Shown here piece after piece: positions 38,274 to 59,485 of a DNA stretch of 64,000 nucleotides. Numbering within the stretch: position 1 is the stretch's first letter; every line of letters starts with the position of its first letter. The notes under the pieces are model-generated. The model saw only the letters and a program-made list of their open reading frames with translations, had not been told where the DNA came from and ran no database searches. Origin of the DNA: Lentinula raphanica (lineage: Eukaryota > Basidiomycota > Agaricomycetes > Agaricales > Omphalotaceae); assembly GCA_027919835.1 (NCBI GenBank), contig JANVFP010000058.1, positions 1-64,000 of the forward strand, given 5' to 3'. The position numbers and the translations under genes are program-made.

Positions 38274-38400
38274 TCACGAATCCGTCATATATTTCTGCCT
38301 TTTCGACGAAGGTAGATGGATCTGTGGACGTCTGTTGATCGCAAAGGAACCCGCCGGGCTTCCTTTATTTCGAGCTGCGCGTTCCCTGCTTCGGTTTTTG
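38274..38400 (-). pseudogene. Detached C-terminus of array gene P1
   Basis: Read on the minus strand from the 9-bp target copy (CGGTTTTTG at 38392-38400), an open frame of 38 codons continues in the exact phase in which P1 is broken at 53679. It begins SRERAARNKGSP and ends with TGA at 38274-38276 (KYMTDS). It is basic and polar, like the C-terminal tails of P2-P4, which P1 lacks. It therefore is the lost end of P1, separated by the outer element. It is not expressed in frame with P1 in the present arrangement. Confidence 0.85.
38392..38400. repeat. Left 9-bp target-site duplication of the outer element
   Basis: CGGTTTTTG at 38392-38400 is repeated exactly at 53679-53687, directly outside the two inverted ends. 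Nine-base duplications are characteristic of Mutator-like elements. Confidence 0.9.
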
Positions 38401-38519
38401 GAGGGTTTATTCGATTCGTAGTACTCCGTTTGATCGGACTTACGTAATTTTTCTAAAGCCGCTTCGCGGCTGACAGCCGGTGATGGCCTACGGCGTTACC
38501 TCAGCAACTCGGCTTATCT

Positions 38520-39027
38520 AGGACCCCCGATATTGCCCCAAGGAGCTCCGATCCAGAAAAAGCAAAATTCGGCGCGTTTTTGGGCTCCAAATTCGGCGAA
38601 TTTCGTCGGACCTATACCAACATGGCTCAAATTCGGCGGAAAATAGCATGAGACCTAAAATTAGCGCCGAGCGCGCTTAAATTCGTACTGCTCAGTGGAC
38701 CGTCGAAATTTGGTCGAAATGAACTTGAACGCGAAGCGTAAGGAGCCCTCTGTGTCACAAGCAGAGAAAAATTGCATAACTCTACATATCTTGTGATTTC
38801 CTTCATACCTGAAGTTGCTGACTGGAGCTCCACCATCTTGGAGTAAAAAATTCGGCGGAAAGCGCATCAGACTTCGGCTACCCACTGCAAAATTCGGCGG
38901 TTTTGGCATCGGTCAAATAGTCCAAAATGGGTCAAAATTCGGCGAAATTGCACCATACATTGGCCCAGAAATTCTCAAAATTCGGCGGTTCTGGATCGGA
39001 GCGCCTAGTGGTAATATCGGGGGTCCT
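38520..39027. mobile_element. hAT-like MITE (508 bp) inside the outer element
   Basis: The ends AGGACCCCCGATATT and AATATCGGGGGTCCT are perfect inverted repeats, extended with a few mismatches to about 38 bp (CTCCGATCCAGAA). They are flanked by the 8-bp duplication GCTTATCT (38512-38519 and 39028-39035). The related A-type end of the inner element, near 52937-52966, reads through this spot without the insertion (CGGCTTCTTACTCCGGCTG reversed) and serves as an empty site. Eight-base duplications and short inverted ends fit hAT elements. Inside, AATTCGGCG occurs seven times. No coding capacity is present. Confidence 0.88.
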
Positions 39028-39035
39028 GCTTATCT

Positions 39036-40325
39036 ACTCCGGCTGTGACTGGTAATGCTTTCTTACCTTCGACAGCCTTCGACTTTCTCATTTCATTCCG
39101 TTTGTGCCCATTCTATTCCTAATAACTCAATAACGAAATCTCTTTGCCTTTCTAGCCCTCCACTTCTACTGCTGCCCCAATTGCTCACTCTCACTGCCTC
39201 CCATTGATGTCTCAACATGACAAGCAAGCAAAAATGAGGAACACAAGGAACTTCCGGACAATAAGGAGACGATGAGCACGAAGACCGCAAGAAGATGAGC
39301 ATTAGAAGATGGGGATCACAAGGAGCACGAAGACCACAATAAGACGAGGACGAAACAGGGATCACAAGACCAGAAAAAGATGAGGACGGCAGCCATGAAA
39401 GCAACAGAGGAAGAGACGAGGACAAGGAACAGACCATGCCCACAAGAATGATGAGAGGGTGAGGATAAGGCAACGACCAGACGAGGATCAGCCAACGAGG
39501 ACCAAATTGGACAAGGACCGTTTCTCTTTTCTTCTCCACAACCATCCCCACTCGTACATCCGATACTACGAACACAATCAAGGTATTCCAGGATGTCAAA
39601 TACGCGAAGAGGAAGAGGTCTGGAGGTTGAGGAGGTTGAATATGCAAAGATGACGATGTTGAGATAGATGAATACGCGAGTCAACGACGATGAAGATGGG
39701 TAATTGGCTCCTCAGGTAAGGACCCTTGAACTTTTCTCAACTTATACTAAAGTTATCTTGGATCACTGATAAATATGCTCGCCTTCATCTTCTCCATCTT
39801 TGTTTTGGTCGCCCCGACTTTGGCGTCGCCTCGCCAGCCGCAACCTCTTCATTTCTCCTTTTCACTGCACATTTGGACGCTTCTCAAGACGAGGAAGATG
39901 AGGAAGTCCAAATCAAGGTCACGAAGAGAAAGACCAACGAGGCAACAAAGATGGAAATGACGGGGCGACAGTGAGGCGCCGGGCACAACGAGCGGTATGC
40001 ATCCACCTTTGTTCTTCAGCTGTACATCCGAAAAATTATCTCTTCCGCAGGTTTCTCTTGGTGAACGTGGCCTCCGATGCAATCATGCACCGCAACTCCT
40101 TTTGGAAACCAGCAGACGCCCAGCCCCTCAGCTAGGCAAGGCTCTGCTGGTTCCCATGGCTCCCTCATGCCCTTTACCTGGCTCACACCCGCCTTCAACC
40201 CAAGTATGAATTACTCGTCACCCGCTGTTGTTAGACACCTGTACATGCAGTTTGACCGCTTAGGTTCTCTGACTAAAACACCGTCGTTGGCGCTGACAGT
40301 TGGCCTTTGTTGGGCCTTTCTCATG
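39036..40325. other. Body of the outer element, no gene
   Basis: Purine-rich GAGGA/AAGA low-complexity sequence dominates 39220-39640. A short frame at 39775 (MLAFIFSIFVLVAPTLASP) looks like a signal peptide but has no continuation that supports a gene. This is the interior of a non-autonomous transposon. Confidence 0.5.
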
Positions 40326-40334
40326 TACTTATTT
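40326..40334. repeat. Left 9-bp target-site duplication of the inner element
   Basis: TACTTATTT at 40326-40334 recurs exactly at 53060-53068, immediately outside the inner element's ends. Confidence 0.9.
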
Positions 40335-40376
40335 AAGAGGGGGTTCGATTCGTAGCACTCCGATTGATCGGACTTA

Positions 40377-40961
40377 AGCCGGAACATGATCCGATGCCAT
40401 AAGCATGGACCGCGCGGCCGGGCTACGCTACTTTTACGAGTAAGGACTCGGCGTGACTCTACATAAATACAAAGAAAATCAACAGTGTGACTATTCTATA
40501 TCCTTCGTCCTGTTGAGCCGCCAGCGAAACACCATGTACCAACTTCAGTCTCCAAGGACATACCAAATTACACAAACCAGATGCAAGATCAATGGTCAAC
40601 AATGAATCGTGTATGTTGTAGGGCTGATATAGCAATGTGCAGGAGGAATAAGAAGAGGATTGGAAGGAATGGAAGGAAAATGGTCTGGTACCACGGTGAG
40701 CTGCTCAAGTTTTTATAAACCTTGTGGCGTTAGTCAAGGCATCCAATTACATACATCAGCGGGCAAATACTCATTCGAACGGCGGGTGTTTCGAGGGTGT
40801 TCTATCGTTCTACGAAGCTAGAAATTCGATAACGGCTTTAGAGGTGTCAGTTTACATTTCTAGACTTCAGTCAGTGTTCTGAACGCCTCCGTAGTTGACA
40901 GTCGTTATAGCCTCAGCTATGAAGCCCATGACAGTGCGTCCATTTCCCCTCTTTTTCTCCA
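40377..40961. other. Subterminal region, upstream of the transposase
   Basis: The first about 75 bp match the B-type end at 53.6 kb (CCATAAGCATGGACCGC). The rest shows no coding potential and probably contains the transposase promoter. Confidence 0.5.
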
Positions 40962-43900
40962 ATGTCTTGGGACACACTTCTGAATCCGCTTCCCAGCACA
41001 GTTTCCGGTGCAGACGATCCTTTGCTCGCGCCATTGGCAATCTCAGTGATACGCAATGTACGCATTAATCGGCAAACTGATGTCGAAGAGCTTTACCATT
41101 ACACGAAGAATACAAAAGTCGAATATCCAAAGACGGCACCACATGGTAAAGCTATTGGGCATTTGTTTGACATGGATGGTTCTGCTCCATGGATATCACC
41201 CGCGCGTTCATTTGCATACTCACAGGGTAGTCCAGATGGAAGCAGAAACCCTGTCTATACTGATCTCTTGGTTGACTCCAATGGTATAATGATACCATGT
41301 AGTATACGCTACAGTACCTGTGAGATATTTTCACTAAGCAGACTTATTCCCTTTGTATCGTTCATACAAGAATTCAATATTTACAGGTCAGGGTGTCAAG
41401 ATTTGTCCAAACGTTTCCGAGGAAATACGTTCCCAAACCCATACTTCAGGATCTCGTTTTGCTCGTGCTTTAGATCTTGAACGCGAACGTCAGGAAGCAA
41501 ATACTTCACTTGATCGTGACTTGTTTGAGAAGACGCTCAATTATTGGGCATGTCTTCGGGACTACGGATGTAGTCGAGCACTCCAGCAAGACACAAAATA
41601 CGAGGGTTACGAACTTGAACAGTACAACACGATTCATCGAAGTCCAACCAAAAAAAACGCGGTCACGAAGCCAAACCTACTTGTCAAGGACGTATTGTTC
41701 TCAAGTATACCTCAACAGGTCGAGCATATCTCAGGTAATAGTTCTCTCAATATATCCAGACTGATCTGAACACGGTACATAGCTGTGAACATTTTGATCT
41801 CAATCGATCTCGAAAACACTTCTGCGATTTTGCAATTGGGAATGACATATATCATACCGATTACCTTCTAGCACTATGCAGTGGCGACTCGAACGAAATA
41901 TACCGATGGGAAAAGCATGCCCTTGACCAGGGATACGGACCATTGGCAGCTTGTAAAACCGTACGGAACTACAACACAATGCGAATTGATTGTCGTGAGT
42001 GAACTGGTTTGTCAGAATACAGCTTCACCTGAATCTGTGAATGCAGCAAATCAACACCGCTTGTCGAATGGTTCAATGCTTATGACTGAAATGTGCACGT
42101 TACCATGCAAAAGTACCTTTCATGTCTATGAGCCACTTCCGGAATATCGTACGAGGTGCCTCAAAGTCTTAGTTCTTTGTTCTGGCCAGCATAGCCACCC
42201 TATACCAGCTTCAACTAAAACACCTCCTGACGTACGATCGGATATTTTACATATGCTCTGTACATCAATGCTCAGCGAGCTACCTGACATGACACCACGA
42301 AGGTTCCTGCGACACCCTGTTGCCCGAGCATTCATCCGCCAAAAGGTTCCATTTTTAGATCAACCTCTGCTCTCTGATGTCCACCCATCTCTTAACAACG
42401 GTGATCATTTACGTTCCTATATTACACAAGCTCAACAGTCCATGTTTCCTGCTGGTACTGGATGGGAAGGTAGATTCAATCTGTGATAGTGCTAGCGGAG
42501 TAGAATTCACTTACCGATTCAATTATCATCTAGGTTTATTGCGGTTGAAGGAAATTCAAGATATTGGACGCTCTATAGAGGACCAGTATATCCGCGTAAT
42601 GGAGGAACACTCACTTCCAGACTTATCTTCTCATTCAATGGAGGAGGATATAGTGGACGATAACAATCAAAGGTTTCGCATAATTATCTGCATGTTCCGT
42701 CAACGAAGTCGAGACCTTCTCAATGCCCGCTTTGTACAAACTGACATTTCCTACAAACGTGTGGTGGGCTTCAAAGAGTTAGAGTTTGTAGGATGGGATG
42801 ATCACAGTCATACCAGTACGTTTTCCTCATTCTGAAGACAAGTGTTGTTTGAGAACAGTTTCATCCTAGCAATCGTATATTGTCGTGCTTATATGACACA
42901 CGAGTCAGCAGCTGCCCACCTAGTATTCTTTCGATTGCTAGATCAGTTAGTACAGAAGGATACTGGTGAAAGCTTGCGATTCCGTCACCTGCACTCTCAA
43001 AGTCTGGAGATCAAAGATCGAGTAGGGATTTTACATTGGGCTATGGATCAAGGTCGAGGTCCTGCAAAAGGTAGCTTAGTCTTCGATCTTCTGAAAGAAC
43101 TTGTCGTGATTAGTGCTTACTATAATGTTTAGGATTAGCATTATATCTACACGAACTTGCGGCCAAACTCTCAGGGTATGATCTACATGAGAAGCATAGA
43201 TACCTTCGCGACTTGCAGCCATACGAACACCTTCACCGTATTGCACGGCTTTGTACAGCTCATGTTCACCGCAATATCAGCAACTCTAAATCGATTTCAG
43301 AAGACATCAAACATAAGATGCGAAGTCTTATGTGCACTGCACATCCAAATTGGGATGAGACAATATCACAGATACAGGATAGTGGAAAAGGAGGCAGAGG
43401 TATGTGCTTTGAATATGGTGGCGAGGTCATAGCACTCAGTTCATCGCCTAGATTGGGTCGCTGACAAGATATCAAGCAAGTTCGCATTCGAAGCAATGTG
43501 TCAAGCAAAAAGTTTCATACCACTCGACGTGTGGAAGGCTGGACCTGCGACAACTGATCTTGTTGAGAGCGCTCATTGGAGTGTGTACCTGGAGGGGATA
43601 GGATGTTCGCTGACCAGTGCTGTAGAGAAAGGCGAACATGTTGATCGGTTGAGGCTGCAATCATCGCAGGTAGTAATGTGAATTTGAATGGTTTCACAAG
43701 AGCTAATGGATATTCAGGTGCACGCACGAACAGGAATCTACACAAGTAATACTCCAAATGACCGCCTTCGGAGCACTTTGATAAGTCATCGTCGCAAAGG
43801 TTTGTATACTGTGTTGCTTGCCTAGGTCAATTGTTGATTGTATCCACAGCTGATGCCGAATCAAAGCGATTAGACCGCGAAGATAAGCAGATTACTTCAC

Positions 43901-44112
43901 ACAATGCCAAGATCGACCAGGCAAAGATCAAGGTGGCAAAGGCTCATGAGAAGTTAAACTCCCTGCAGAGTGCATCATCAGCTCCAGCAGCAATCGAGCG
44001 GGCCAAGCGGTCTTTGGAGAATGCTCAGAGATTGCTTACAAAGGCAACTGAGAAGGGAAACAACTTGACGCAAACTGTACAGGGTTCTGGTTCTGTAAAC
44101 ATACATTTGTGA
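40962..44112 (+). CDS. MULE-type DDE transposase
   Basis: This cut-and-paste transposase mobilises the inner element and possibly the outer one. The proposed start is MSWDTLLNPLPSTVSG at 40962. Exons join cleanly at about 41320/41389, 41733/41782, 41995/42048, 42471/42533, 42818/42874, 43073/43133, 43401/43453 and two later sites. The N-terminal half has a Cys/His segment (MCTLPCKSTF, then CLKVLVLCSGQHSHPI) like the WRKY/FLYWCH-type fingers of MULE transposases. The catalytic core has D in FVQTDISYKRVVGFKEL, then VYCRAYMTHESAAAHLVFF, D in WAMDQGRGPAKGLALYLHEL, and E in the TTDLVESAHWSV motif. A C-terminal coiled-coil (DREDKQITSHNAKIDQAKIK, RAKRSLENAQRLLTKATEKG) ends at 44112. No stop or frameshift is found, so it looks functional. 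Confidence 0.82.
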
Positions 44113-44870
44113 TTGATTAGAATGAACTTCAGTTCTGTTTTTGTTGGCTATACAAGTTTCCACATAAATATTCCTTTGCTTTCCTCAACGTACGCGATTA
44201 CGCCCTTCAGGCATTCCCAAAGATCACGATTCGTCGGCGGTGAAATGGAAAGGATATGAAGGCGGTCGACATATTGTGGATAAAGTCGGATTGGATGACG
44301 CGTTTCTGCAGTGGAGTCACGGGCGATCTGGTAGAATGCAGTTAGCAAAGGGATTTGAAGAAGAGAGGATGCAGATAGACATACTGCAAGTCGGAGTCGA
44401 AGGCAAACTTCGAGTTGTTGCGGGCCACACAGACATCATTGCTGCAGAAGAATCTGTCCCTGATGGGGCAGCGGTTGTCGTAGGTGTTGCTAATTCAGTG
44501 GCCGTCTCAGTGCCAGTCTCAATACTGACACTAACGGGGCCATTCTTTTGTGGTATGTCTGTAGGTTGAGAGACGCAAAAACGGTGATGATGCGAATGGG
44601 GGAAATGCGGCGTCCGAGCGGTTGTAGATTCTATAGCAGGAACCTCTAGCCAGTGGGTAACTCGAGAGGAAATTCGAAGGAGCAGGACGGTGGCGACGCG
44701 AACGAGGTTGAGGTCAATGAATTGACGTCATAAATCAGCCTTGGTCAAATCCGTCATCGACTCAAACTCGAAGATCGTCGACGACCGTAGTCAAATACGA
44801 ATTTCTCGTCTTGCATGTATTCATAGTGAAAACCAGGTGAAAACGGTCCAGAAGAGTGACAGAAGCATGC
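44113..44870. other. Unassigned cargo DNA in the inner element
   Basis: A minus-strand Thr/Ser/Pro-like stretch (VSVSIETGTETATELATPTT, about 44570-44400) and a frame at 44348 (TAFYQIARDSTAETRHPIRL) look like remains of another captured gene. No family is recognised and no full gene can be built. Confidence 0.35.
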
Positions 44871-45772
44871 TCAACACCTCTTGGCCAAGTTCGTGTGTGT
44901 CGCGGTTGAATGACGGCAGTGGTCCACGAGTCCAGTTTCGTCGCGACAAACATGCACACCATCGAAGATTTTTTGGGATAGCCGTGTACTAGGTACAGAG
45001 CCGGATGGGTTATGAGGTTTGGCAGAGCACGAATGTACGCAAGCTCGTATCACGGCTAGATGAATGCGGAGGAGGAGGAGGAGCGCTGCCATAGTCGGGG
45101 TAGAGTTCCGCTGTAGGACATTAGTGTCTGCAAGATTGAAAAACGCGAGGACACGCGAGATGAAGAAACGCTCGTTGTCGTTAATGCGGTTGTTCCAGTC
45201 GTGAAGGTCTTTGGAGAGATCCATCTCTTCGGCGGTCCAGAAGGAAGCTTCAACTTTTTTGTACATTTGCCAGATCTGAGAAACGCGTAAGACCAGGGAA
45301 AGCGGAGTGAGCGTGTTAATAGCGTACTTCATGATATTGGATAGGGAATAATACGAAGCGACGTCTTGACTCCAGAAGGAGAGGTTCCTCGCCTGAAACA
45401 CGACCTTGAGAACAAATAACGCGTTGAAGGAGGAAAGACGCGTACTTTCGGGTAGCTCAACCTCTCCTACAAAACGTTCATGCAGAGCCGCCAGTTCTTC
45501 GGCGGACTTGGATGACGCCGACTTTGGGGCATCATCTTCATGGAGTTTGTCCTCGGCGTCTTCAAGGGATGCAGGCGAAGCAGAACGGCGTTTGTCGTCA
45601 ATAAGAGCTGCCTTCGAAGATTTCTTGGTAGGCGAATCGAAGGACATCCTTGCCAAGGCAGTAGCAGCCTGAAGACTTGATTAACGCGACGCGAAGCACG
45701 TAGCAGAGGAGAGTTCACCTTTTTACTAGGGGTAGGTCCAGGAGAAGGGAAGCGAGTAGGAGTGGTAGCCAT
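44871..45772 (-). pseudogene. RNR2: 5' fragment of ribonucleotide reductase small subunit
   Basis: The ATG at 45772 begins MATTPTRFPSPGPTPSKK. After introns the frame gives [22 protein letters not shown] joined to [19 protein letters not shown], then [19 protein letters not shown] and ISRVLAFF. This is a clear match to the N-terminal half of the class I RNR small subunit, which provides the diiron-tyrosyl radical for dNTP synthesis. Similarity stops near 45141. The helices with the later iron ligands (the second E..H set) and the C-terminal tail that docks the large subunit are missing, and the frame continues in unrelated sequence to 44871. It cannot work as RNR2; it is most likely a gene piece captured by the transposon. 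The window holds no intact copy. Confidence 0.85.
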
Positions 45773-45966
45773 TGGGGAAGATAGTAAGAGTTTATGAGTC
45801 TGGCAGTAAGTAGTGGTGGTGGCACACGAGCGGGTGAGAACCTGGCAAGGTACCCGGGCTCTTTTTAAACTCGAAATTTTCTCGCGGTGTGGTCTTCAAC
45901 GACGCGCTACACTGCGTGATCTTAAACAAGGACTCATTCGCTCGAAATGGACGACGAGCTCCATCG

Positions 45967-46646
45967 TTATCTCGTCTCTCCATTGAGAAGGCAGAAGGGA
46001 CGCAGAAGGGAAGAGGTGTTTTGGGTGTGGAGAAGACGGCGAAGTGGAAGATTGAGGAAATGGTGTTTGAGATGAAAGATGTGCTTGAGGCGACGAAGAA
46101 TCTCTTGCATCAGTCTGAGAAGTTGTTGTCGGTATTGATTGCGGTGTGGAAGGACGAGGAGGAGCCGGGATGTTCTCGGCGCAACCGAGCTGCGATGAAC
46201 ATGAGCCCTGGGTGTACTAGCAGGCGCAACCGAGCTGCGACGAGAGAGGCGAGGGAGAGGCGGAGTAACTTCGTGGGCCGTGACATCGACAACATGGATA
46301 TCTGGCTTTTCAAACGTCTTTTCCTCAACAAGAGATGCTGTAGAGGAAGCGTCAATATCCTTCGCCCTTCCTTTCCCTTTGTCGACACGAGGAGGCATCA
46401 CCGTAGAGACGTGGCTGTCGCTATCGCTGATGGACGTTGTCTCGTCATGTATCCTAAAGTTCTTCCTGAGTACTGAGCGTGACTTCATCATCCTCAGAAT
46501 GGATATAAGGGCACAGCAATTGGATCGGCAGGGATATCGAACAGGCCAGCAATCCCCTCAGCAAGAAGAGACGAGGTTGGTTCATCAGTGAAGGACAGAC
46601 GACGAGTAGGGCCGCCAGTGAGTTTGAGCGTGAATTGGGTAGGCAT
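45967..46646 (-). pseudogene. Broken PB1-domain gene fragment (NBR1/p62-like)
   Basis: The ATG at 46646 begins MPTQFTLKLTGGPTRRLSFT, then FDIPADPIAV, the start of a PB1 domain. The reading frame then jumps: SEDDEVTLSTQEEL lies in the second frame, and FRIHDETTSISDSDSHVS in the third, with stops between. GDEVTLSTQEEL..FYRIH is the expected PB1 OPCA-type acidic motif, so two small indels have broken it. A linker (PPRVDKGKGRAKDIDAS) follows, as in basidiomycete PB1/ZZ-finger proteins related to the autophagy receptor NBR1. No ZZ finger or later domain follows. It is a decayed 5' fragment in the same orientation as the RNR2 fragment, likely captured with it. Confidence 0.7.
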
Positions 46647-46841
46647 GGTTGTTGTGATAAAGAAAGCAACGTCGATCAGTATAGATATCGCCCATGAAGC
46701 GAACAATGACAAAAAATTTGATATTCTGGTTGAATGAAAGACCCAATCCAAAGGCAAGGAAGGAGCTCTAAGTACAGACCAGTCAGGACAGAAAAGAGAT
46801 GAGTCAAAATACGCACTTTTACTCAACCTCCTCACTGCCTC

Positions 46842-47339
46842 TTACTGCGTTGTTGCCGCGCAAGCACGATTCTGTACTGAAGACGTCCTTCCAAAATCTT
46901 CGACAAATATTTCCGAGTTTCGCCGTATCAAAGACGCGTCTAGATTCTGGAGCCTTTCATCAACATCTGATACAATCTTGAAGCAATTCTGAGAGAAACT
47001 CCATCCATCTGAAGAGGCCCTAGAGTCTGTACACTGTACAGCAGAGAGTCTTCTGAGTGCGTTGGGCTTTGTATCGTCGAAGAGACGGTCTGACATTCGG
47101 ATGACGACGACGACGATTGAGAAATGCAGCGTCGGCGAGTCACCGAGCAAGCGCTCAAGCGCAGGGTCAATTCGGTGTGAACCGTTTGGAAATTGGTAGG
47201 AATCTGGGATGCATTGATCCGAGCCTGCGGCAGAAATTGACATATAAGCCCTAAGAAAATTCCAACATTCCACCCCTTTTCCACCCAACCACCACGTCAA
47301 TACACGGCTGGGACTCATGCTCGTGCTCCTGTGGTTCAT
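46842..47339 (-). other. Possible third captured fragment
   Basis: An open frame (NALRRLSAVQCTDSRAS, VDERLQNLDASLIRRNSEIF) has ordinary protein-like composition and lies directly upstream of the PB1 fragment. I do not recognise it, and the competing frames look equally open. Confidence 0.25.
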
Positions 47340-47482
47340 TATACTGGGCCTTTCACCCCTTGGTAAGTCCTACATTATTTCTTTTCTAATTCCCCATCTA
47401 TATATGTGTGCCATTTTGGTTATTGAGCGCCCAGGCAGCCATATGTGTGCCGGTCGGGTTTCCCGCTGTTCAACAACATTGA

Positions 47483-47718
47483 CTACCCAGCTGCAGTAAT
47501 CTGCGTTCGCTCATGCATGGGCGTAGGCTGTGGTGGCTCAAATGCTGTTGTTCTAAGTCGGTCTGCCATCCGGTCGCTCGTGGGCGGCGGTTCACTCGCG
47601 CATGGGCCTTGGCCATGACACGGACGTGGCTGTTCAACGTGGGCTACCCAGCTGCAGTAATCTGCGTTCGCTCATGCATGGGCGTAGGCTGTGGTGGCTC
47701 AAATGTTGTTGTTCTGGC
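47483..47718. repeat. Direct repeat of about 72 bp
   Basis: The segments beginning near 47484 and 47643 (CTACCCAGCTGCAGTAATCT, CATGCATGGGCGTAGGC, GGTGGCTCAAATG) are nearly identical over about 72 bp. They are spaced about 159 bp apart, and related GGCCATGACA pieces lie between and after them. The repeat lies just 5' of the dioxygenase gene. Confidence 0.75.
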
Positions 47719-47898
47719 CTTGTTCCGGGTCGGGCAGCCATTCCCTCGTGCGAGGGCGCCTGTTCACCCACGCAACGGCGTAGGCCATGACATGGACCTG
47801 AATCCATTCATCACACAAAATTAGTTCGATCCTGGGGTGATAGGCTGGTCGAGTTCATCAGAATTGAACACTAAAATTCAACCTCATATGGCTTTTAG

Positions 47899-49711
47899 GT
47901 GTGGTGGAAGATACATCCGTAGTTATCAGTGGCCGCACGGTATGTTGGTTTTTGATTCTTTTTGCCGGTGCTTACCGATGTCCAGACGCGCTCGGGATAC
48001 ACATTTGGATATTTTGTCATTCCCACATCCTCCGTGCAGGAGCTGATTGAACAGGTCGAGGACGACTTCCTGGATTTTGTTGACGATCCTGCCGTTGATC
48101 CATCAGAGGAAGACACCGATGAGGAGGACACAGAAGAGGATGAAGCATACCAGGACATATTCCCGTCCCATGCATCACCGGATCCGCCACCGTTGACTCA
48201 CAAGTTTACGTTCACGGCCTCTACCCCCCCCGTTACACCAACACCCATTCTCCACCAACCAGTACAGGCATCCACCGCATCTACATCCTGCTCATCACCT
48301 ACCGCTGCATCCCACCAACCGCCCAAGCGTAAGCATAGCGATGTGGACCATAACCCACCCACCCAGCAGAACCCATCGCAGAAGCGGACTTGTATTGATG
48401 GGGGCTCCAAGCAACAACGCTGGGTACGCCCAGAGAACCCCCAGTTAGTGCAGAAACGATCCAAGCAAAGGGTTAGTAATAACCACGCGCGGCGTCGGAG
48501 GAATAGAGAGGCTCAACGAAAAGATGCCTTCCATGCAACAGTGTCGCCCACTCATCGAGCCCATTTGGCACGCAATGCGCAGATAGTCCGCACGGACTTC
48601 GACACAGGTATGATACTTGGGTATACCTCAGGCTACCTAGGCCGTGAGAGGGTCGACAAGAAAACTAAACGCCTGCGACGAGTCTACGCTCTGGATGATT
48701 TGGTGGGGGAACATTCGAAGTGGAAGTTCAAGGTACTCAAGGCTGACCTCCAAAGCATGTATGTTTATGATCCATGGCACTTAACTGAGGCTTACCGCCG
48801 TTGTCAGAGGACCCACTCTCATTACAGACATCAACAGCCGTGTCTTCATTACACGTATCCCACCCCCAGTTGGTGATCCGACGTTCCCTCAGGATGCAGC
48901 ACAAGCGGCTGCTGTTTTAGAGGAGTATAGGCCATATCTGTTCAATGCTAACAAGCCTGGAAAAAAGCATAGACGAGGTGACTTTCCGGTGGCCCCAATT
49001 GGAATATCCTTCGGTGGAGGGCAAAATGTACGTGATTTTGTTGGAATAAAAGTCAAAGATCATAAGGTTTAAGAATATACATTGCAGCGTCCCAAGAGGA
49101 TATATCACCCATCACTCGAGCTGAACGCCCTTGAAAAGATTCGTGGCCTACCATGCTTCAGTCGTTTGGCTGGCCATGCTACCAAGGCATTTGCAGCCTG
49201 GTCACCAAATCTTTACTCCTTTTATGTTGGTTACATGCAACGGCTTTCCACCATGGTTCCTGACATCTTGTTCAACTGGAAATCCAGCATTTTTGCATGC
49301 TGCACCTTGAACTTTGGTCCGCAAACAACTACGATCAAGCACCTCGATCATATGAATTATATATATGGTTGGTGTTGTATCACTGCCCTTGGAGATTTTG
49401 ACTTTCGACGTGGTGGCCACCTGGTCCTATGGGACCTAGGCTTGGTTGTTGAGTTTCCCCCAGGTTGGACGATCCTAATACCTTCAGCGTTCCTGCTTCA
49501 TTCGAACACCCACATAGCACCCGGTGAAACTCGATACTCGATGACCCAGTATACCGCAGCTGGGTTATTCAGGATTATAGATGACGACGGAGTGCCACGA
49601 AAGAAAATGACTCCAGAGGAGCTTCATTTCTCAGAAGAACGCCAACGTGCGCGTATTACGGAGGCACTCGATCGTTACACAACGATTGAGGAGCTACTAG
49701 ATATGGATTGA
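47899..49711 (+). CDS. TET/JBP-type Fe(II)/2-oxoglutarate dioxygenase
   Basis: This gene resembles the fungal TET/JBP family, whose members oxidise 5-methylcytosine (or thymine in kinetoplastid JBP) in DNA. The N-terminal part is acidic (ELIEQVEDDFLDFVDDPAVD) and then Pro/Ser-rich and basic. Exons join at about 48769/48818 and 49027/49088. The C-terminal catalytic region reads SIFACCTLNFGPQTTTIKHL, with HLDHMNYIYGWC giving the HxD iron ligands. It continues ALGDFDFRRGGHLVLWDLGL, then FPPGWTILIPSAFLLHSNTH with the distal His, and ETRYSMTQYTAAGLFR with the Arg that would bind 2-oxoglutarate. All expected residues are present. The stop is at 49711. The 5' end is unresolved: an exon from about 47899 fits the phase, and further upstream exons are possible. 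Catalytic activity is inferred from the motifs only. Confidence 0.8.
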
Positions 49712-50070
49712 TTTGTTCAATATACTGTAAAGCTTCACTTTGGGTGCTCAGAATCGTATATAGTTCGACAATATTTGATTGTTGCCTTAAAGCAATCCCA
49801 CAAATACAACAAAAAAATTTACATTGAATTTTTTAAAGTATATGTGCAAAAAATGATTAATAAATGTACATAGATAAAAAATTGTTCAAGAAAAGTATGT
49901 GTCGATATACTGTTGACCAAGAGATAGCATGAGTATTGAGTATCAACTAACGGACAAAATATAAACTAAGAAAAGATGCGACCAAGAAAAATAACTGCAA
50001 CAGGAGTTATGACCAAAAAAGACTAACATGAATTATATATCGTTCCAAGAAACTATAGCAGTGAGATAAC
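49712..50070. other. AT-rich convergent intergenic region
   Basis: About 360 bp of AT-rich DNA separate the convergent ends of the dioxygenase and the Cys/His-rich gene. No structure beyond A-runs is seen. Confidence 0.5.
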
Positions 50071-52609
50071 CTACTCAGAGTCAGAAATTATCAAAACCTG
50101 CGGGGGTTCGCAATGAAGATCATGAGAATCTGTGTAGTCATAATGAACATATTTTGTACAAGCAGAGCAACGACGGAAAAGAATTTTGAGTTGGTCCGAA
50201 TCCAAACCACGAGTTCGTAAGCAAATCCACAACGCGTTGAAGGAATGGTCAACGATCGAAATGAAGTCGTTCGGGGGACAGTCCTCTTGATTGTGAATGT
50301 GTATCTGGTCCGAGCGAAGGAATAATTTGCATGAACGGCACTGACGAATCAATTGGCGAACCGTGGTTTCGTTGAGTCCTAGACTTTGTAAACAAGTTAC
50401 CCATTCTTTGTTGTATGGTAAAGGGTGCTTTAACGACGTCGTTATAACCTTGCAGATATCTAACAAAATATATATCAATATATTCAAGAAAAATCGTACA
50501 AGTTACTCACCGATTGGTGTGAATACAAGATTGCTTGAATCCGTTGTTGTTGCTACGGTGGTGCTGCTCGTTGCATTCAATGCAGATAGCGATCGATCGC
50601 GAACGGCTTTTTGATATGGAAAGCGTTTTATGCGCTTGGTAGACACTGAGATTTGTTAGACAGGTCTATTCGTATATTATCAGAATCAACATACCAAGTG
50701 GTTCAGGAGCTTGAGCGCGTTTTTTCCCTTTGTAATTATCATCCAGAAATCGTGAGGAAGATCCAGGCTGGGAAGGTGGAGGTGGAGGCGGGGGCGGGGT
50801 GACTGGCAAATGACGCAACGATGGTGAGATAGGTGATGACTGGGTAGATACGGCTGAGTCCGGAGACTGTGAAGATCGGAGCGTATGCGCCAAAAGAAAA
50901 GAATGCAGACGCTGTAAAGACGTGGAAGGTCCAGCAGAAGAGTGTTCCATATTGTGCAATAAAGAGTAGAGCTGTACCCGCGGTGGTGAGGCAGAGGCTT
51001 CGACCCGCGTCGAGTATGCAGATGCTTCGATCTGCTGCGAGGCTGTCGACGATTCAACCTGCTCCGAGGCTGTCGACGATTCGACCTGCTCCGAGGCTGT
51101 CGACGATTCGACCTGCTCCGAGGCTGTCGACGATTCGACCTGCTCCAAGGCTGTCGACGATTCGACCTGCTCCAAGGCTGTCGACGATTCGACCTGCTCC
51201 GAGGCAGTCGACGATTCGACCTGCTCCAAGGCTGTCGACGATTCAATCTGTTGCGAAGAAAATGATGGCTCCACATGTTGTGAAGAAAACGACATCTCGG
51301 ATGAAGGCTGTGACAGCAGTACAGATCGAGCAGATGGCGCAAGCTCAGGGAGTTGTAATAGAGGCGGAAGGTGTTCAAGTGGCGAAAGTAACTGAGGAGG
51401 CGACTGCATGGATACCGATATTGACTGAGTACTTGACTGTGGTGCGTCCAGTGGGGCAGATGGCGGTGATGATAGAGCTGACATAGTAGATATTGATCCA
51501 AGATAAGTTTTGACTATGGACGTTATTGAGAAAACTATATTTGATGACAAGAAGGAACTTACCGTCGTATTCTTCAAATTCGACTTGGGATTCAGCTCCC
51601 AATAGCGTGGCAATGGGAACTATCACAGATTAGTTAACTCTATGATTATAAGATGAAGCTGAGATATGCATACCATAGTAGGCACAAAATTTGCCTTTGA
51701 CGTTACAAGCAAAAGCTAGGACCCCACGTCGAGAGCGGATGACGGTCTCGCTATACATACCTGTGTTACTAGCGTGTAAACAGGACGGAAACCGGAACTC
51801 GTGTGTTCTTCGATAGTTCTCCAGCGCCTTTTGTTCGATTGGGACCATGGTCCCGTCGTTTTTGAGTGGTCTGTGTGAGATTTAGAAAATGTGAAGACCG
51901 AAGATCCTAAATGATGAACATCAAAAACGTACAAGGCAAAATCAACCAGGCCATATCCTGGAAGGAAATGGACAAGCCGTTTTGTTTTGATGGCCTCCTT
52001 AAGCTGGCGGCGATAATCTTCCATCACTGTAGCAGTGAAGACAGGTGTCGGAGGTACGTGCTGACGTTCGACTGAAAAACTATCAACTTTACGGCTATCA
52101 GAGCGTAAAGTCCGTTTCATATGAGAGCAGAGGGTGTGGGTGATATGAGAGGTGTGGCTCTCTCGCCTTGTTGCAATTGAGGTTTTATAGCGAAATTTGG
52201 CCAAGTCGGAAGCCCATGCCTGGCAATGAATCTTGAAATTTTTTCGTAAAGAAAATGAACGCCGTCCTGCAACAACCTGTGGATGATAAATAGATGTTAG
52301 TGGTTGTTATATAAAAAATAATCAAGAACGCACTCTGAAACATAAGAGTAGCATGATAGACAACCAGAAGCTGCACTCATTCCATTTGTGCTCGTGAAAA
52401 TCGGCTTCAGCGAACTGAAAATTGTATGAGTCGTCCATTCTTGACACATCCGAAGTCTTGGAATTATGAGGTTCAGGTTTTGGGGTGGAGATAGTACAGT
52501 AAGCCGTTGCAAACGGCCTCAATGGATATAGCGCATTCCAATCGCCAGTTGCCAGAGTCAACCTCCGCCCTTCTTGAACGTCGGAAGTTGGATGATAGAA
52601 GCTCAACAT
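50071..52609 (-). CDS. Cys/His-rich companion protein of the TET/JBP gene, unknown function
   Basis: The family is not named, but the gene is intact. The proposed start is ATG 52609 (MLSFYHPTSDVQEGRRLTL). Exons join through VVAGRRSFSLRKNFKIHCQA and YKTSIATRRESHTSHITHTL. They continue with LVHFLPGYGLVDFAL, then PLKNDGTMVPIEQKALENYR, FCAYYVPIATLLGAESQVEF and a long Ser/Pro/Gln-rich region holding eight copies of a nine-residue repeat. The C-terminal exon has two similar C-x2-C..H..C units, QCRSCKLFLRSDQIHIHNQ with EDC and RCSACTKYVHYDYTDSHDLH with C. These look like paired zinc-binding modules. It ends at 50071. It is convergent with the dioxygenase gene inside the same transposon, so it may act with it, for example in DNA or chromatin binding (inference). 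Confidence 0.65.
51040..51255. repeat. 27-bp coding minisatellite
   Basis: Eight tandem 27-bp units (GAGGCTGTCGACGATTCGAC plus CTGCTCC) encode the nine-residue repeat VESSTASEQ or VESSTALEQ on the minus strand. Units differ by one to three bases, indicating recent expansion and probable length polymorphism. Confidence 0.9.
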
Positions 52610-53017
52610 GATTCGCAGTTCTAGATGAAATGATGTAGCTCCCATATATTGGTTTTTCAAGTCGTTTGGAGAACTGCGAAGTTCTATATTGATGAAGAGT
52701 TCTAACAATCAGCAATAGCTTGAGTTATGGACCAGTTTTGCACTTACTGGGTACACAGATGTAATGACGACAGTTAGATGGACTACAGCATCAAGAGCCA
52801 AGCATGGAGGTGGCAGAAATACTGAGCCCAAGGTTGCCAGGATGTAGAGCAGTACATAAGTAGCCAAGGCAGCGGAGGTTGACGTTGAACACGATCAACA
52901 GAATATTAAGTGAAATTGTGACAAAGTGCTACGAAGTCACAGCCGGAGTAAGAAGCCGAAGCTATCACGTGATGCCGGACGGCCATCAGCCGCGGAGCGG
53001 CTTTAGAGAAAATTACG
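52610..53017. other. Subterminal region of the inner element's A end
   Basis: This contains the promoter side of the Cys/His-rich gene and, from about 52930, sequence shared with the outer element's left end (GCCGCGGAGCGGC palindrome-like segment). No further gene is supported. Confidence 0.5.
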
Positions 53018-53059
53018 TTAACCCGATCAATCGGAGTGCTACTAATCGAACAAACCCTC

Positions 53060-53068
53060 TACTTATTT
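53060..53068. repeat. Right 9-bp target-site duplication of the inner element
   Basis: TACTTATTT is the exact copy of 40326-40334. Confidence 0.9.
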
Positions 53069-53636
53069 GCCACAATCAAGAACTTGTTGTACGTACTATG
53101 AGAATCATGATAATTTGACAGCTAGTAAGCTGTTATTGAAGCTTTTTGCACGTAACAGTAAGAAACTCCCGCTGTTTGGAACGGGCGGGTGACAGGTTTT
53201 GCCTGGGTTTTGCGGCTTGCTTGGTGATGTTGTACATAAATGGATGGTGGCGGGTTTACTAAAGGGATGCACAAGGTATAAAAGGACTGCTTGCCATGCT
53301 ACAGCCTACAGTACCAACCTTGCCTTTCCTCTCTTCCACCTATCTGGGTTTCCTCTGAGTCTTACCAGTGCAGGAAACAGTCGCCCTCCGGATTTTTGGC
53401 ACGACAATGAGTTTCAGCTCTATACAATCCTGTGAGTTCTCTACCATGACCATTGGCAGGCCGCCTTGGGACTGTTCGTAGAATATTTTCGCTCTATATT
53501 TTATAATATTGTCACTGTCACTCTCCTTTGTATTTTTTCCATAGTACGGCGTAAAGTACTTGTAAAGTATATGGTAGTCCCGGCTACTAGTCCGGCCGCG
53601 GCGGTCCATGCTTATGGCATCGGATCTGATCCGGCC
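53069..53636. other. Right part of the outer element, no gene
   Basis: The frame starting at 53199 lacks protein-like character. Near the end the sequence matches the inner B end (CATGCTTATGGCATCGGATC). Confidence 0.5.
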
Positions 53637-53674
53637 TAAGTCCGATCAATCGGAGTGCTACGAATCGAACCCCT

Positions 53675-54792
53675 TCACCGGTTTTTGCTCCCTTCGACGT
53701 AATTGAGATAGACGTTGATGCAGTCTGTACGTGTCTTTTGCCACGTTGTCAATGTTGATTGCCCGATGGAGTGTTCTGCACTGAGGGCATTCATGATGCC
53801 TTCCGCAAACCTCCACTTTGTGAGATCTTGTGTAGACGGTTTGTGAGAGATGTCGGCATCCTTCCGCCATTCTGCTTCTACCACCTGCCACGTTTTAAGA
53901 AGGTCTGTATTTTCATCTTGAAACTGAGTATGCGTTGCAGCGTAATGATACAGCTTCTCAAGGTCCACAGGTTTGGCATCTTCCTGGATCTTACCAATGG
54001 TGTGTTGTCGTGAGAATCGGGTTTCGGGGTCGATAGGTTTTGTGAGGAAGATGGTGGTGCCACCTATGGACAGAGCTAATTCTCCACTTGGATGCCTCTG
54101 TTGCAATGTAACATACTCAATGAGGATGATTTCTAGATCCCGTGAAATGAGTAAGTGTATTTTGAATAGAAAAAATATCCTATGTAGCATGCACATACCC
54201 TGGCCGGCCACTATTGACAGTGCCTTATTCATCTCTGTGGTGAAGGTTTCCAATGTTTGGTCTATGAATAGGCTGTGCGAACAGAGCAATCCCAAAGCGT
54301 TGTGGAGATATCTCCAATAGTTGATGGAACCCAACTCCAGTGGATATGCGAATTCGAGTGCGCGTGTGCGTGCTTGTGTAAAAACCGCGTCTCCTTTCCC
54401 TTTCACATATGAAACATGGCCAATGATCTTTCTGGACACAAAGGACTGTGCAGTAAGAGCAGTGGGACCCATGATGTGAAAATGTTCGGGACCGATATTG
54501 AGAAAGACTGCTCCTGTGCCGACTGCGTCTATGTGCTTGTCATTGGAGAAGGTGACAACCTCTGATAGAACAATAACTGCAGCTCAATTGATCAGTGTAT
54601 GCTCAACAGTCAAGTGTTGGTCTTTCTGGGCTGCTCACCATGACCTTCGATTTCACTCCCAGCCTGAGGTTCCTCTGGGTGGTTCAACGGACGAGCGATT
54701 GCGACAGTGCTGAGGCTGAGCAAGCACACAGCCAGAGAGACGATGACGAATGGGCGCAAAGAGGATCGTTGAGACGATATGTGAAGTCCCAT
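53675..54792 (-). CDS. Array gene P1, truncated at its C-terminus by the outer MULE
   Basis: This is a member of a four-gene tandem family with no recognised function. The start at 54792 gives MGLHISSQRSSLRPFVIVSL, with a hydrophobic run (FVIVSLAVCLLSLSTVAIA), a signal peptide or anchor. Exon 2 begins near 54573 (VIVLSEVVTF) and includes VGTGAVFLNIGPEHF and SINYWRYLHNALGLLCSHSL. Exon 3 begins at about 54142 (IILIEYVTLQQRHPSGELAL) and carries TRFSRQHTIGKI, then LTKWRFAEGIMNAL. P2-P4 continue for another 35-45 basic residues. P1 stops at EGSKNR, where the last Arg codon and TGA are completed by the transposon end (53675-53678). The missing 38 codons lie at 38274-38391. Exons are open up to that point, so a shortened product may still be made. 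Confidence 0.75.
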
Positions 54793-55486
54793 AATTTGAA
54801 GAAATGCGTAAGGACGATTAGATACAATATAGAATGATAAATATGTCCAGCCTATGTCAAGTGCGACAACCGTCAGTGAGAAATTAGTATCAACAGTCGA
54901 GATATGTTACCAGTGGACTTGATTCTTTCCGGAAGAAATGTGAGCTGATGTGAAGACTCGGGAGTAGTACTACTAGTACATAGTCAAGATGGGAATTTCG
55001 AAACGTGTTTATATTTATTTGGTCCGTCTGGACATTGCCGGCGGAGGTGCTCCTCTCTATCGAACAGCTAGTGCGCTACTACGATAGATAGATTCAAACT
55101 CGAGTACGCCAATGATGGCATGTCTTGCGCATCTTGAAATAGGTATGCGGCCATGAAGATAGCTAACGTTGTAATCATATTTGCAGTCGGTCAGAGAGGA
55201 ACAGGCAAACGATATGAGATCGGGAGCAAGACCAATGCGAACATAAATAGAACATGGTGTTGGATATATACAGTGACAGGTCAAAGAGGGAGAGAAGAAT
55301 GTTAAAAGAAACTGAGTGAGTACAAGAAGGGTGGCCAATCTATGTTGGAAGGTTGAAGTGACGAGTTGTCCTCAGAAAGGGTAATAGAGTCAGACACGGC
55401 AATGGGCAGCTGAACGGAGGGACATGAATTACCTGAAAAAAGGCTATGGCTATGCTCCTCCACTCGACTCTGGCTGATCACTGCGA
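54793..55486. other. P1-P2 intergenic region with conserved P-type 3' flank
   Basis: The 55190-55440 part matches the 3' flanks of P3 and P4 (GGAACAGGCAAACGATATGA, then GTACAAGAAGGGTGGCCA). No separate gene is seen. Confidence 0.6.
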
Positions 55487-56741
55487 TCAAGTCGAAGCTC
55501 TCGGCGGCTTAAAGATCAACAATTTCAACGGTGGACGTTCATAAGGTTTCCTTCCTCTGAAGCGCCGGGCCTTCTTCTCCCAGTTCGTTTTTGCTATGAC
55601 CCTGATGGTCTGTTTTCGAGTTTCGACCTGCGAGATATATGCTGATAAACGTTTGCAACGTATCTCTCGGTACGCTCCTTGTGTTGTTGCTGAGATAGAT
55701 TTTTTGGCAAAAAGGCCATTCAGGATGGCATCCGCAGACTTCCACTGATCCAATGTTTTTTTGCCAGAGGAACGGGCCCTCGGTTGGGCAGAGTCACGCC
55801 TCCAAGTCTCTTCTACCTTCATCAGATCCTCAACTTCTGCAGCGCTACCTTTGAATTTGGGATGTGTCTTCGCGTAATCATATAGATCCTTCAGGGAGGT
55901 AGGTTTTACGGTTCTACCGATGTAGTGCTTTCGTGCAACTCGAATGCGTGGGTCGACAGGACTTGAATGAATGATGTTGGTTGCACCGATGAGCACAGAT
56001 ACCTCCCCACTGGTTGGAACCGCGTATTTCAAATGGGTTCTAGTGAGATATTCAATCAAGTATATTTCTAGATGAGATGAGTAAATCGATATCGATTCTG
56101 GGAATAAAACTATATCATACATACCTTCATTGGCCTTTATGGACATGACTTTGTCCATTTCCGTTTTCAGCTTCTCATTCAATCTTTGATTTACCAAGGG
56201 TGAACAGAGTTCTGCGACAAGGGTGGTGAGGTACTTCCAATCATTGATGGTAATACCATCCGACTCTGGATACTCGAAATCTTTGGCGTGATCGCGTGCG
56301 TGTCGAATGTACTCCTCTTCTCTTCCTTTCGGGTATGAGATCTCGCCAAGGTTTGTTTCAAGCACGGACACAGTGCCCTCGTCCGACGCAGTCACTGGGG
56401 GTTGGTCATCCTTATAGAATCTTTCCACTCCAAGAAGTGTGCCATCCTTATCGATTTGATCTGCCCTGAGGAAAACAGCTCCTGTGGGCACAGATCCTTC
56501 AGCTGTACCATATTCTCGTATGAGAACCTGCGATAGAGTGATATCTGCAATCCAAATACATCAGTATGTCACATGTGTTGACGTGTTAGAGTTCCTCACT
56601 GTAAACTACTTTTTCAACTTTCTGCAAGCGGTCTGTGGGACGAGCGAGTACAGCGAAGGCGCTGAGCAAGCCTGCGACGAGGAAGAGAATGCAGAATGGG
56701 CGCAAAGAGAACAAAGACAAGAGGTGTGCTCGATATCGCAT
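55487..56741 (-). CDS. Array gene P2, signal-bearing protein of unknown family
   Basis: The ATG at 56741 begins MRYRAHLLSLFSLRPFCILF, then a hydrophobic core (FLVAGLLSAFAVLARP) suited to a signal peptide or N-terminal anchor. An intron (about 56600-56545) leads to ITLSQVLIREYG, PTGAVFLRADQIDKDG, EISYPKGREEEYIRHARDHA, FEYPESDGITINDWKYLTTL and VAELCSPLVNQRL. A short intron near 56100 precedes IYLIEYLTRTHLKYAVPTSG. Then come EVSVLIGATNIIHSSPVDPR, YIGRTVKPTSLKDLYDYAKT, LDQWKSADAILNGLFAKKSI and a basic tail ending FKPPRAST. The array-wide core motifs are GAVF, FEYP.-.DG, a Y/W pair, LIEY, GEVSVLIG, HS.PVD and W.FAEGILNGL. About 370 residues are predicted. No enzyme motif is seen; secretion or endomembrane location is inferred from the N-terminus. 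Confidence 0.75.
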
Positions 56742-57052
56742 GATTGGAAGAAATCCGAACTGGATCGTCGGCGAAGTTCAGTCTATAAAACATGTACCGC
56801 AACTGTTAGCAAAGAGAACATCATCAGCAGAAGAAGAGATAGAATACCAGTGGTTTTGTCGTTTGGAAGAGTCGTGAACTGGATGTAGTCAGTAGTCAAG
56901 ATGGGAGGGAAAAAAAGTAAACAGCGCATAATATGTGTCTGAGGCTTTTAACAGATCAAAAGAACCGTGACTCTGGGACGCTACCATTGCCATCAGGCAA
57001 CAGGGCCATGTACAGCCTGGAAATGAGAACCAGCAGACTTCGAAGTTCAAAA

Positions 57053-57874
57053 TCAAGGAAGACACTTGTTTTGATGAACGATCTTTCTGTGCTTCAATGC
57101 GTTTTCAATAGCCAGATCAATCTGAGGTGGTGTTAATTGGTGAACGTACAGATAGCATTGATTAAAATTTGAACAAGCTAAGATGACCATCCATGTGTGG
57201 ACAAGGCTTATACGATAACGCTGTCTTGAAATTTCTGGAGAAGCTTCGCGCCTCGATCCGGCTCCTGAGCCAGAAACGACACCAGCACAGATTCTGCACC
57301 ACCAGCGCCACTTGTGTAGCCCTGCAATCCAACTAATTGGACCTTGACCTGATTGGGGTAATGCTTGAGCGGAGGAAACAGAGGTAGCAGAGATTGCCAA
57401 GATTGCGGAACAGAAAACGTGACAATGCGAAAGGTGAAAGGCTAGTAGAAGCACCCATAGAGGTGATGGAAGATCCTTGTTGAGCATGTTGGGAAAAAAG
57501 ACCTCCCGTAAGGCTGTCGTGTCCAAATACTGTCTACGTCTCCAAAGGCATTGGGGTAGGTGTCATAGAAGTTGTGTGACCAGCGATCAATACTGGAACA
57601 GTTCGGCGAGAATTGTCTGTGCGCCGCTCTCGTAGCCATAATTATTGAACACATTCAAAAGACATTGTTGATGACCCAATCCCTGGCCACCGAGTCCGCT
57701 CATACTATCAAGACCGGCCGCACTACAACCAAGCGCACCCTGTCCTAAGCCACTTAAGGCTTGGCCGGTCACTCCCAATCCTTGACCGCCTGGGCTTTGA
57801 GAGCTCGAGACACTTGCCAAATGCTCCATACCCATTGTTATCCAAGGAGAACTCAGCCAGGATATAAACGGCAT
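57053..57874 (-). CDS. Array gene X, hypothetical, possibly decayed
   Basis: This is not recognised. Frames on the minus strand give a Gly/Ser/Gln-rich beginning (MEHLASVSSSQSPGGQGLGV, QQCLLNVFNNYGYESGAQTI), then YDTYPNAFGD and GHDSLTGGLFS. Next are VGLQGYTSGAGGAESVLVSF with LAQEPDRGAKLLQKFQD, and at the end LYVHQLTPPQIDLAIENAL. The pieces lie in different frames; introns or frameshifts may explain this. A fragment matching YDTYPNAF..LGHDDL occurs at 37.8 kb. The ending LYLYV..TPPQI.LAIENA recurs at the window's right edge. That protein-level conservation between copies argues for a real gene, but intactness is doubtful. Confidence 0.35.
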
Positions 57875-58682
57875 CTCAGTGAGCGAAGGTATCCCGGCGT
57901 AAGCATATGACAGAGAGCGTTTTCAATGCAGGACACGAGGCACATCCTAGAAACCGATAGACCCTGATTGCATCGTTTTGGGGAACCTGGAATTGAACGT
58001 GCGAGTTCGCGAGAAAGAGAAGAACAACGGAGGATGTACGTCCGGCGCATTTCAAACGTAATGAACGCGTCAACCGATTTCTGTTGTGGATTATGCAAAA
58101 GGATGGAGAAGGCGTTGGCTGGTCCAGAGGTGAAGCACGAATACTCAGTGGGAGGAGTATAAGGCATGACGTGAAAGCCTATGAGGTCGTTGAGACCTTC
58201 AGTTGAAGCTGGCGTATCTTTGGAACACGATTCCTAGATGTGGCTTCGATTCAAAGTTGATGATGTTTCAATTGCCGGTCGAGGAGCAGGAAGAGTCGAC
58301 GAGTGATTGAAGCCACTAGTGACACTAGCTGAGAGACAGCACTACCATGTGGCGGTTAGTCATTTTGCCTGAGATAGTTCGTGCATGCTGGACGTGTCAA
58401 GGGGGCCTCCGTGTTCGCGTTTAACCAGGGAAGCCTGGTCCATATGCGTGATTAGACCAAGTCGAGGGTGATGATGGGACAGAAGAGTTTCAAATTGAGT
58501 TGTTGTTGAAACTATCTGCCACCGATAGGAGAAGGAGCAGAGAGTGTATGATCTGGTATGACCCTTCAATCTTGCCCTTCTTGCGCGAAACAGAGGCACA
58601 TCGTTTGGCTTTGCTTATGAGAGAATCAAATGAGCGAATAAGAGAACATTGGAAAGTTGATTAAACTCGTACCATCGCTAAC
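57875..58682. other. No gene recognised
   Basis: Several short frames on both strands (for example 57968 and 58360) lack convincing composition, paralogs or start context. Further exons of gene X on the minus strand are possible. Confidence 0.35.
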
Positions 58683-58952
58683 TCATGCAACAGCCAGCTC
58701 TACATCTCCGTTCACTTCAGAAAGCAGGGTTTGCAAGTCTAGAAATTCTTGAATTGAGTCTTGAAACGCGCTGGTTGAAGAAAGCCACGAAACATACCAT
58801 CGTATATTATAGAACCATGAAGGGATAAATTCTCGAAGCTGCTGAGCCTTGTGGCTCGCTATCCATGTTGGTGGTACATAGAAGGTGGTAGATAGTGAGC
58901 TCAAATTAGCAATAGCGCTTGTGTTAGGTAATATTTTCACACGCGCTCCCAT
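58683..58952 (-). CDS. Small hypothetical protein (weak)
   Basis: The ATG at 58952 begins MGARVKILPNTSAIANLSSL, and the frame runs to VNGDVELAVA at 58683 (89 residues). The middle (REFIPSWFYNIRWYVSWLSS) is aromatic-rich. There is no domain or second copy in the window. It could be an exon of a longer gene. Confidence 0.3.
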   Translation of the reverse strand: MGARVKILPNTSAIANLSSLSTTFYVPPTWIASHKAQQLREFIPSWFYNIRWYVSWLSSTSAFQDSIQEFLDLQTLLSEVNGDVELAVA

Positions 58953-59485
58953 TTATGTAATTTTTGGACCTCATTCAACTTTGCACTCCCAGCCTCTCCC
59001 AGGACTCCTTCAGCCCTGCTTCAGCCTCAGTTCAACCTCTTTCGTCTAGATATTCAGTCTACCTTGATCGCTCCAATTGATCGCGTTTTACGTCGTCAAT
59101 GTTCTTCTCTCAAGCTACTTGAAGGTCTCTAGTTAGCCAACAGTCGAGGTTGTGATCAATGTGCAGTCAGTCAACGGTATGGGGCAAACGATATGATATC
59201 AGAAGCAAGACTGAAAACGGACATGAATAGAGGATGGTGATAAATATCTGCACTAAAAATACGAAGAGAGACAGATGAAAGACAAAAGAAACTGATCATG
59301 AGTAAGTACTTACTACTGGGAAGTCTATGTTAGAAGTTGAAGACGAGTTGTATTAAGAAAGGGATCATGGAAGCAATAGAGTTAGACATGGCAATGGGCA
59401 GTGGAGAGACATTCATCACCTGAAAAAAAATATGGCATTGGCTAGGTTCCTCAGTCACTCGACTTTGCGGCGCTGATCTCCTCCT

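Follow-up and report, generated by a model that had tools for sequence, protein, structure and literature searches.

Does a mobile element in a mushroom genome carry its own enzyme for altering DNA methylation, and if so, what kind of element is it? The question is raised by the window analysed here, a stretch of 64,000 bp from the shiitake-like mushroom Lentinula raphanica (assembly GCA_027919835.1, contig JANVFP010000058.1, positions 1 to 64,000; hereafter C58, one of the 75 contigs of the 49.06-Mb genome), in which a gene for a TET/JBP-type dioxygenase lies within a transposon. TET enzymes in animals remove DNA methylation marks. We consider it fairly probable that the transposon is an autonomous Mutator-like element (MULE) encoding its own IS256/Mutator-type transposase, a putative base-oxidising, anti-silencing TET and a zinc-finger helper, and that its TET was acquired separately from the enzyme, similar to CcTET of Coprinopsis cinerea, found in related elements. 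This reading is carried by the bounded location of the gene, by the gene order in three complete elements and by intact catalytic residues.

A dioxygenase gene inside a bounded element

Two elements are nested in the window. The inner element (40335-53059; 12,725 bp) has inverted ends and is flanked by a perfect 9-bp target-site duplication, TACTTATTT (40326-40334 and 53060-53068). Its B-type end (40335-40420, plus strand) forms an inverted repeat of about 29 bp (97%) with the A-type end (52980-53059, minus strand), which differs from the B type. It was inserted, reversed, into an outer Mutator-like element (38401-53678; 2,544 bp after subtraction of the inner element and one duplication), which is flanked by CGGTTTTTG (38392-38400 and 53679-53687) and in which no transposase was found; it has relatives on C57, C2, C19 and C29. 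Within the 64 kb, both duplicated sequences occur at their own junctions only; random pairs of junctions share a 9-mer (slack of 5 bp to either side) at a frequency of 0.00075. A short relative on contig C57 aligns to the outer element on either side of the point where the inner one was inserted, and lacks those 12.7 kb. The dioxygenase gene lies inside these borders, as expected from the original prediction that a mobile element carries it.

The gene (47317-49711, plus strand; 567 aa) consists of five exons (47317-47362, 47899-47939, 47986-48758, 48808-49027 and 49088-49711) joined over GT-AG introns into one open reading frame. The last four exons are firm; the first (47317-47362) encodes a hydrophobic stretch and is probable, on the basis of its phase and of a similar exon 5' of the paralogues on C11 and C45. 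The long first intron holds imperfect 81-bp tandem repeats at a spacing of 161-172 bp (47474-47800). Retention of the HxD motif, the distal histidine and the arginine had been noted and was confirmed: H445 and D447 (HLD), H498 and R509 are all present. In 59 of the 82 relatives found, the first histidine is kept in 59/59, the aspartate in 55/59 (asparagine in four), the distal histidine in 59/59 and the arginine in 58/59. Compared with eight paralogues, the proportion of synonymous differences (pS) is 0.77-0.85, which is saturated, and that of nonsynonymous differences (pN) 0.14-0.29, a mark of purifying selection. DNA matches elsewhere in the genome are at 67-71% (the best at 69-71%) and lie within the gene; a recent capture from elsewhere in this genome was rejected on these grounds.

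Related elements and two TET lineages in one slot

Genome searches with the transposase and with the third gene led to two further complete elements that carry a TET gene and related genes: C2:109421-122600, flanked by CGCTATCGC, and C18:941996-955768, flanked by ACTTTCTTC, each a perfect 9-bp duplication. At their ends (GAGTCGGGGTTCGATTGTTATAAC and GAGGTACTGTTCGATTGTTATAAC) both are similar to the window family. The gene order, transposase, TET and a gene on the minus strand, is common to all three. Pieces of the C2 and C18 transposases are 52-71% identical to L. raphanica protein P0083, to which the window transposase is 99% identical over the part searched, and pieces of the third gene are 34-42% identical; the two are therefore relatives of the window element, not copies. 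As near-copies, 95.7% identical to one another over 5.3 kb, they are counted as one family.

The TET differs between these families. The C18 enzyme aligns to CcTET at the sequence level (E 8e-13) and, at +5 and +11, retains the Gly and Asp that Kojima names for recognition of 5-methylcytosine (5mC) and N6-methyladenine (6mA) (PMC12730594); over the main piece, the TETs of C2 and C1 share 98-99% identity with it. The alignment of the C18 TET with the window TET is non-significant (E 1.7, 20%), though in the right place. This CcTET-like lineage has strong matches at four places in the genome, three of them beside the minus-strand gene. Two related element families thus hold deeply different TETs in identical place and orientation, either by replacement or by parallel gain, which suggests that elements acquired a TET against host silencing more than once.

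The inner element also contains captured DNA. Its segment 44858-47098 is pieced together from stretches that resemble loci on C1, C3, C9 and C12, each 36-814 bp long and 78-97% identical (C3, 78% and, elsewhere, 94-97%; C1, 97% over about 811 bp; C9, 91%; C12, 88-93%, in three collinear pieces separated by two gaps), and includes a fragment of a ribonucleotide reductase small chain (PF00268, E 8.4e-19). This is Pack-MULE-style capture in a mushroom. Such free capture of DNA would also fit a TET gene that came along as a passenger, as the ribonucleotide reductase fragment did, and does nothing for the element; so would the HxN form of the iron-binding motif in 4 of the 59 relatives, the nearest one included. 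We regard this as quite unlikely, however: the captured fragments are scraps, whereas the TET gene has five intact exons, is under purifying selection and has no near-identical source in the genome, and a TET of another lineage occupies the same slot, in the same orientation, in two complete elements.

With the two element ends as queries, the genome gave 10 and 6 places: four short relatives of 2.5-3 kb (C2, at 1510900, C19, C57 and C29), the two elements of the window, one B-end on C9 by itself and, on C11, a B-end with an A-end far from it. The short relatives on C19 and C29 have perfect 9-bp duplications, that on C2 has one mismatch, and that on C57 has ACCGGCATG on both sides, a duplication read by eye. 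The transposase was found at seven places, the third gene on six contigs including C58. On C1, a TET lies beside the minus-strand gene, with a transposase relative 66 kb upstream. On C11, a B-end with transposase (1327170-1333075) and a third-gene piece with an A-end (1400012-1401124) are 67 kb apart; between them lies a Plavaka match and, among the matches listed, no TET. Apparently, C11:1327170-1401124 is one element split by nested insertions. The complete inner element of the window is probably autonomous.

The third gene of the inner element (50074-52681, minus strand; multi-exon, ends uncertain) encodes two CCHC-type zinc-finger motifs near its C terminus, both kept between the window and C2/C18; its relatives adjoin a TET on C2, C18 and C1. 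About ten 27-bp tandem repeats at 50940-51310 code for a Ser/Glu-rich repeat of 9 aa. The outer element contains an insert of 508 bp (38520-39027) that the C57 relative lacks; its inverted ends are 39 bp long (90%), and it is flanked by an 8-bp duplication, GCTTATCT (38512-38519 and 39028-39035). Diverged similar stretches form a tandem array at 53675-60103 and 38023-38229, within which the outer element was apparently inserted; the three longest frames of the array match no Pfam family above cut-off. The element end sequence has no match in a plasmid collection, as expected for a fungus.

Class of the dioxygenase and of its carrier

Several results weigh against the favoured reading. At full length the window TET has no Tet_JBP (PF12851) match in Pfam at E<=1, and the window transposase matches neither the Kyakuja-Dileera-Zisupton (KDZ) nor the MULE profiles of Pfam. 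An hhalign comparison of the transposase with six local PF10551 proteins remained at chance level (shallow alignments, reversed control equal). The structural model of the transposase is middling (predicted local distance difference test, pLDDT, 78; predicted template modelling score, pTM, 0.57), and Foldseek alone found no match to it at E<=0.001. The nearest database relative of the TET, the L. raphanica protein P0001, is identical to the window protein over its 330 residues except for an Asn at D447, a change that should cripple iron binding; the same HxN form is seen in P0004, P0021 and P0029. Nine of the 11 closest TET paralogues are near none of the transposases searched for. The inner element shows no CpG depletion (0.95, against 0.94 in the host) and thus no sign that it had been methylated; the value is 0.72 in the C2 element and 0.78 in the C18 part, and as a mark of methylation CpG depletion gives no clear signal.

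Because the window protein lacks a Tet_JBP profile match, its TET/JBP label rests on structure and relatives. At E<=1, Pfam gives a single row for it, DUF6196 (E 0.081, below cut-off). Tet_JBP is matched by 16 of the 59 relatives at E<=0.1 (best 1.2e-6), and in comparisons of the predicted fold CcTET, NgTET1, TET2 and CMD1 come out ahead of other 2-oxoglutarate oxygenases, CcTET (7vpn, 7w5p, 8jkk) being the best match, in keeping with the class given in the original reading. A PDB sequence search with the family profile gave nine matches (best E 0.0029), none of them TET enzymes and all within the first 147 of 452 positions, the variable N-terminal part. Sequence searches with the enzyme family give no CcTET match at E<=10, and the family differs from CcTET in carrying Asn and Cys in place of the Gly and Asp at +5 and +11. 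Of two types described by Kojima (2025, PMC12730594), it is not the PE type, which has HxE in place of HxD; the window has HLD, and D or N stands at that position in the 59 relatives. The AG type has Asp at the equivalent of CcTET Asp337 and Gly/Ser at that of Gly331; at these positions, placed by sequence only, the family has Cys (58/58 rows with a letter) and Asn (59/59).

The transposase gene (40962-44109, plus strand; about nine exons in the model) encodes a DDE enzyme with CxxH and W. Among rows with a letter, D518 is kept in 40/40, D601 in 39/40, C649 and H652 in 37/38 and W703 in 37/38; position 740 is E in 38 rows, S in one and G in one. In predicted structure the enzyme comes nearest to an IS256-family (Mutator-type) transposase. 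The duplications, 9 bp long and perfect in seven of eight elements, fall within the 8-11 bp of Mutator. Twenty transposase relatives matched 14 families, of which PF10551 is not one, and it is likewise missing from the 25 of 28 families listed for 42 relatives; none of its listed places in the genome is on C58, and a PDB sequence search with the transposase profile gave no match. The terminal inverted repeats (TIRs), about 29 bp between the inner ends, are short of 100 bp; long TIRs are typical of MULEs, and non-TIR MULEs are also counted (PMC3903597). The MULE-like borders and transposase first proposed are supported by the duplications, the DDE residues with CxxH and W and the IS256-like structure. 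The Mutator assignment follows from structure and duplication length, not from a sequence profile. A carrier that is hAT-like or of a still unnamed DDE superfamily would agree with the missing profile link to MULEs, with the short repeats and with CxxH and W, which are common to hAT as well (PMC5225508); set against the structure and the duplications, we hold it to be unlikely.

Alternatively, the TET gene could be part of a second transposon, of KDZ or another type, that landed within the Mutator-like element. TET genes and KDZ do keep company in this genome: for 21 of 99 TET places a KDZ match is found no more than 8 kb away, against 3.7 expected, and the two remaining close paralogues are near KDZ (C6, 49%, 2.5 kb; C26, 58%, 8.0 kb). 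The 99 places come from 78 of the 89 rows of one search (11 dropped as further exons) and 28 of another; 128 of 158 KDZ matches were used (weak and overlapping rows dropped), and expected counts assume even placement. In the window, however, no KDZ transposase had been seen in the original reading, and no KDZ (PF18758) match is listed on C58 or found among the families of 20 transposase relatives. KDZ duplications measure 7 bp (Kyakuja) or 8 bp (Dileera and Zisupton) (PMC12730594), and those of the C58, C2 and C18 elements 9 bp. Among 20 listed inverted pairs no other long, well-matched pair surrounds the gene, and the order transposase, TET, zinc-finger gene is repeated on C2 and C18. A second transposon around the TET gene is thus very improbable. 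A KDZ carrier was rejected on the missing C58 match, the ends and the duplications, and a separate Plavaka carrier on the listed C58 Plavaka matches, which lie only at 83-84 kb.

TET genes adjoin other transposases as well. Four of the 99 places are near PF10551 (0.48 expected) and three near a window-type transposase (0.28 expected). Of 14 PF10551 MULE places listed in the genome, four face a TET at 1.66-1.77 kb (C17:873000-878500, C12:684800-690300, C9:1465200-1470800 and C18:115500-121800; L077-L080), and in a tree of 45 rows with several long branches the TETs of these places group together as a third lineage, separate from the window TET and from the KDZ-linked TETs. The C17 and C12 units are 84% identical over 5.3 kb, with unrelated flanks; no duplication was found at their borders, and self-comparison gave no inverted ends. 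Weak PF12851 matches about 5-9 kb from Plavaka (C14:568660, C45:132729, C1:1673891, C40:378615, C11:985056 and others) agree with the TET-bearing Plavaka elements of Kojima.

A putative anti-silencing role and known systems

The element TET likely serves escape from methylation silencing. The dioxygenase would oxidise methylated bases, 5mC most likely, on element DNA; the oxidised DNA would then escape silencing; the zinc-finger protein may supply DNA binding and help the TET or the transposase to find the element; and the gain of the window dioxygenase would be an event distinct from that of the CcTET-like enzyme with which related elements fill this slot. An enzyme that acts on RNA or another base, or that regulates transposition, rather than on 5mC, is a less likely alternative. 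More tentatively, and with some doubt, this Mutator-like group may keep a fixed slot for a base-modifying TET, refilled with a deeply different lineage, so that TET and conserved zinc-finger protein would form a module for element-directed demethylation, an enzymatic counterpart of Vandal self-protection.

Transposon TETs are strong candidates for mobile DNA that erases host methylation marks. One genome here holds clean-bordered complete elements, two TETs for one slot and TET-less short relatives, so that a single mycelium would allow elements with and without a TET to be compared for methylation and activity, a direct test of the anti-silencing idea.

Eleven TET-carrying transposon lineages have been described (Dileera, hAT7, IS3EU, PHISTA/Harbinger, EnSpm, ESTA, Helitron1/2, Kyakuja, Zisupton, Plavaka; Kojima 2025, PMC12730594). 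In the accessible text of that paper Mutator/MuDR stands outside the eleven, MuDR being named in the introduction alone, for plant Vandal and Phytophthora SET genes; an anti-silencing role is argued for other TET lineages, with the lack of experimental validation noted. No report of a TET-bearing Mutator element was found in the open-access literature. As TET-carrying transposons are already known, what would be new is a Mutator-like carrier with two deeply different TETs in its slot, which adds a lineage to the published eleven.

The window element is like the fungal TET-bearing DNA transposons in encoding a TET/JBP dioxygenase with a transposase, presumed to counter methylation (PMC12730594); it differs in its 9-bp duplications, its transposase, its conserved zinc-finger gene and its two-lineage slot. 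With plant Vandal it shares, by description, a Mutator-type element with an anti-silencing protein (PMC12730594); its candidate protein is a TET-fold enzyme, the Vandal proteins being compared by description only. Pack-MULEs likewise contain captured gene fragments (PMC3903597, PMC5225508). Compared with the IS256 family (ISCth4), the window transposase is eukaryotic and multi-exon, with an N-terminal zinc-binding region, and the element has 9-bp duplications, whereas most ISCth4 copies have 8 bp (PMC7780238).
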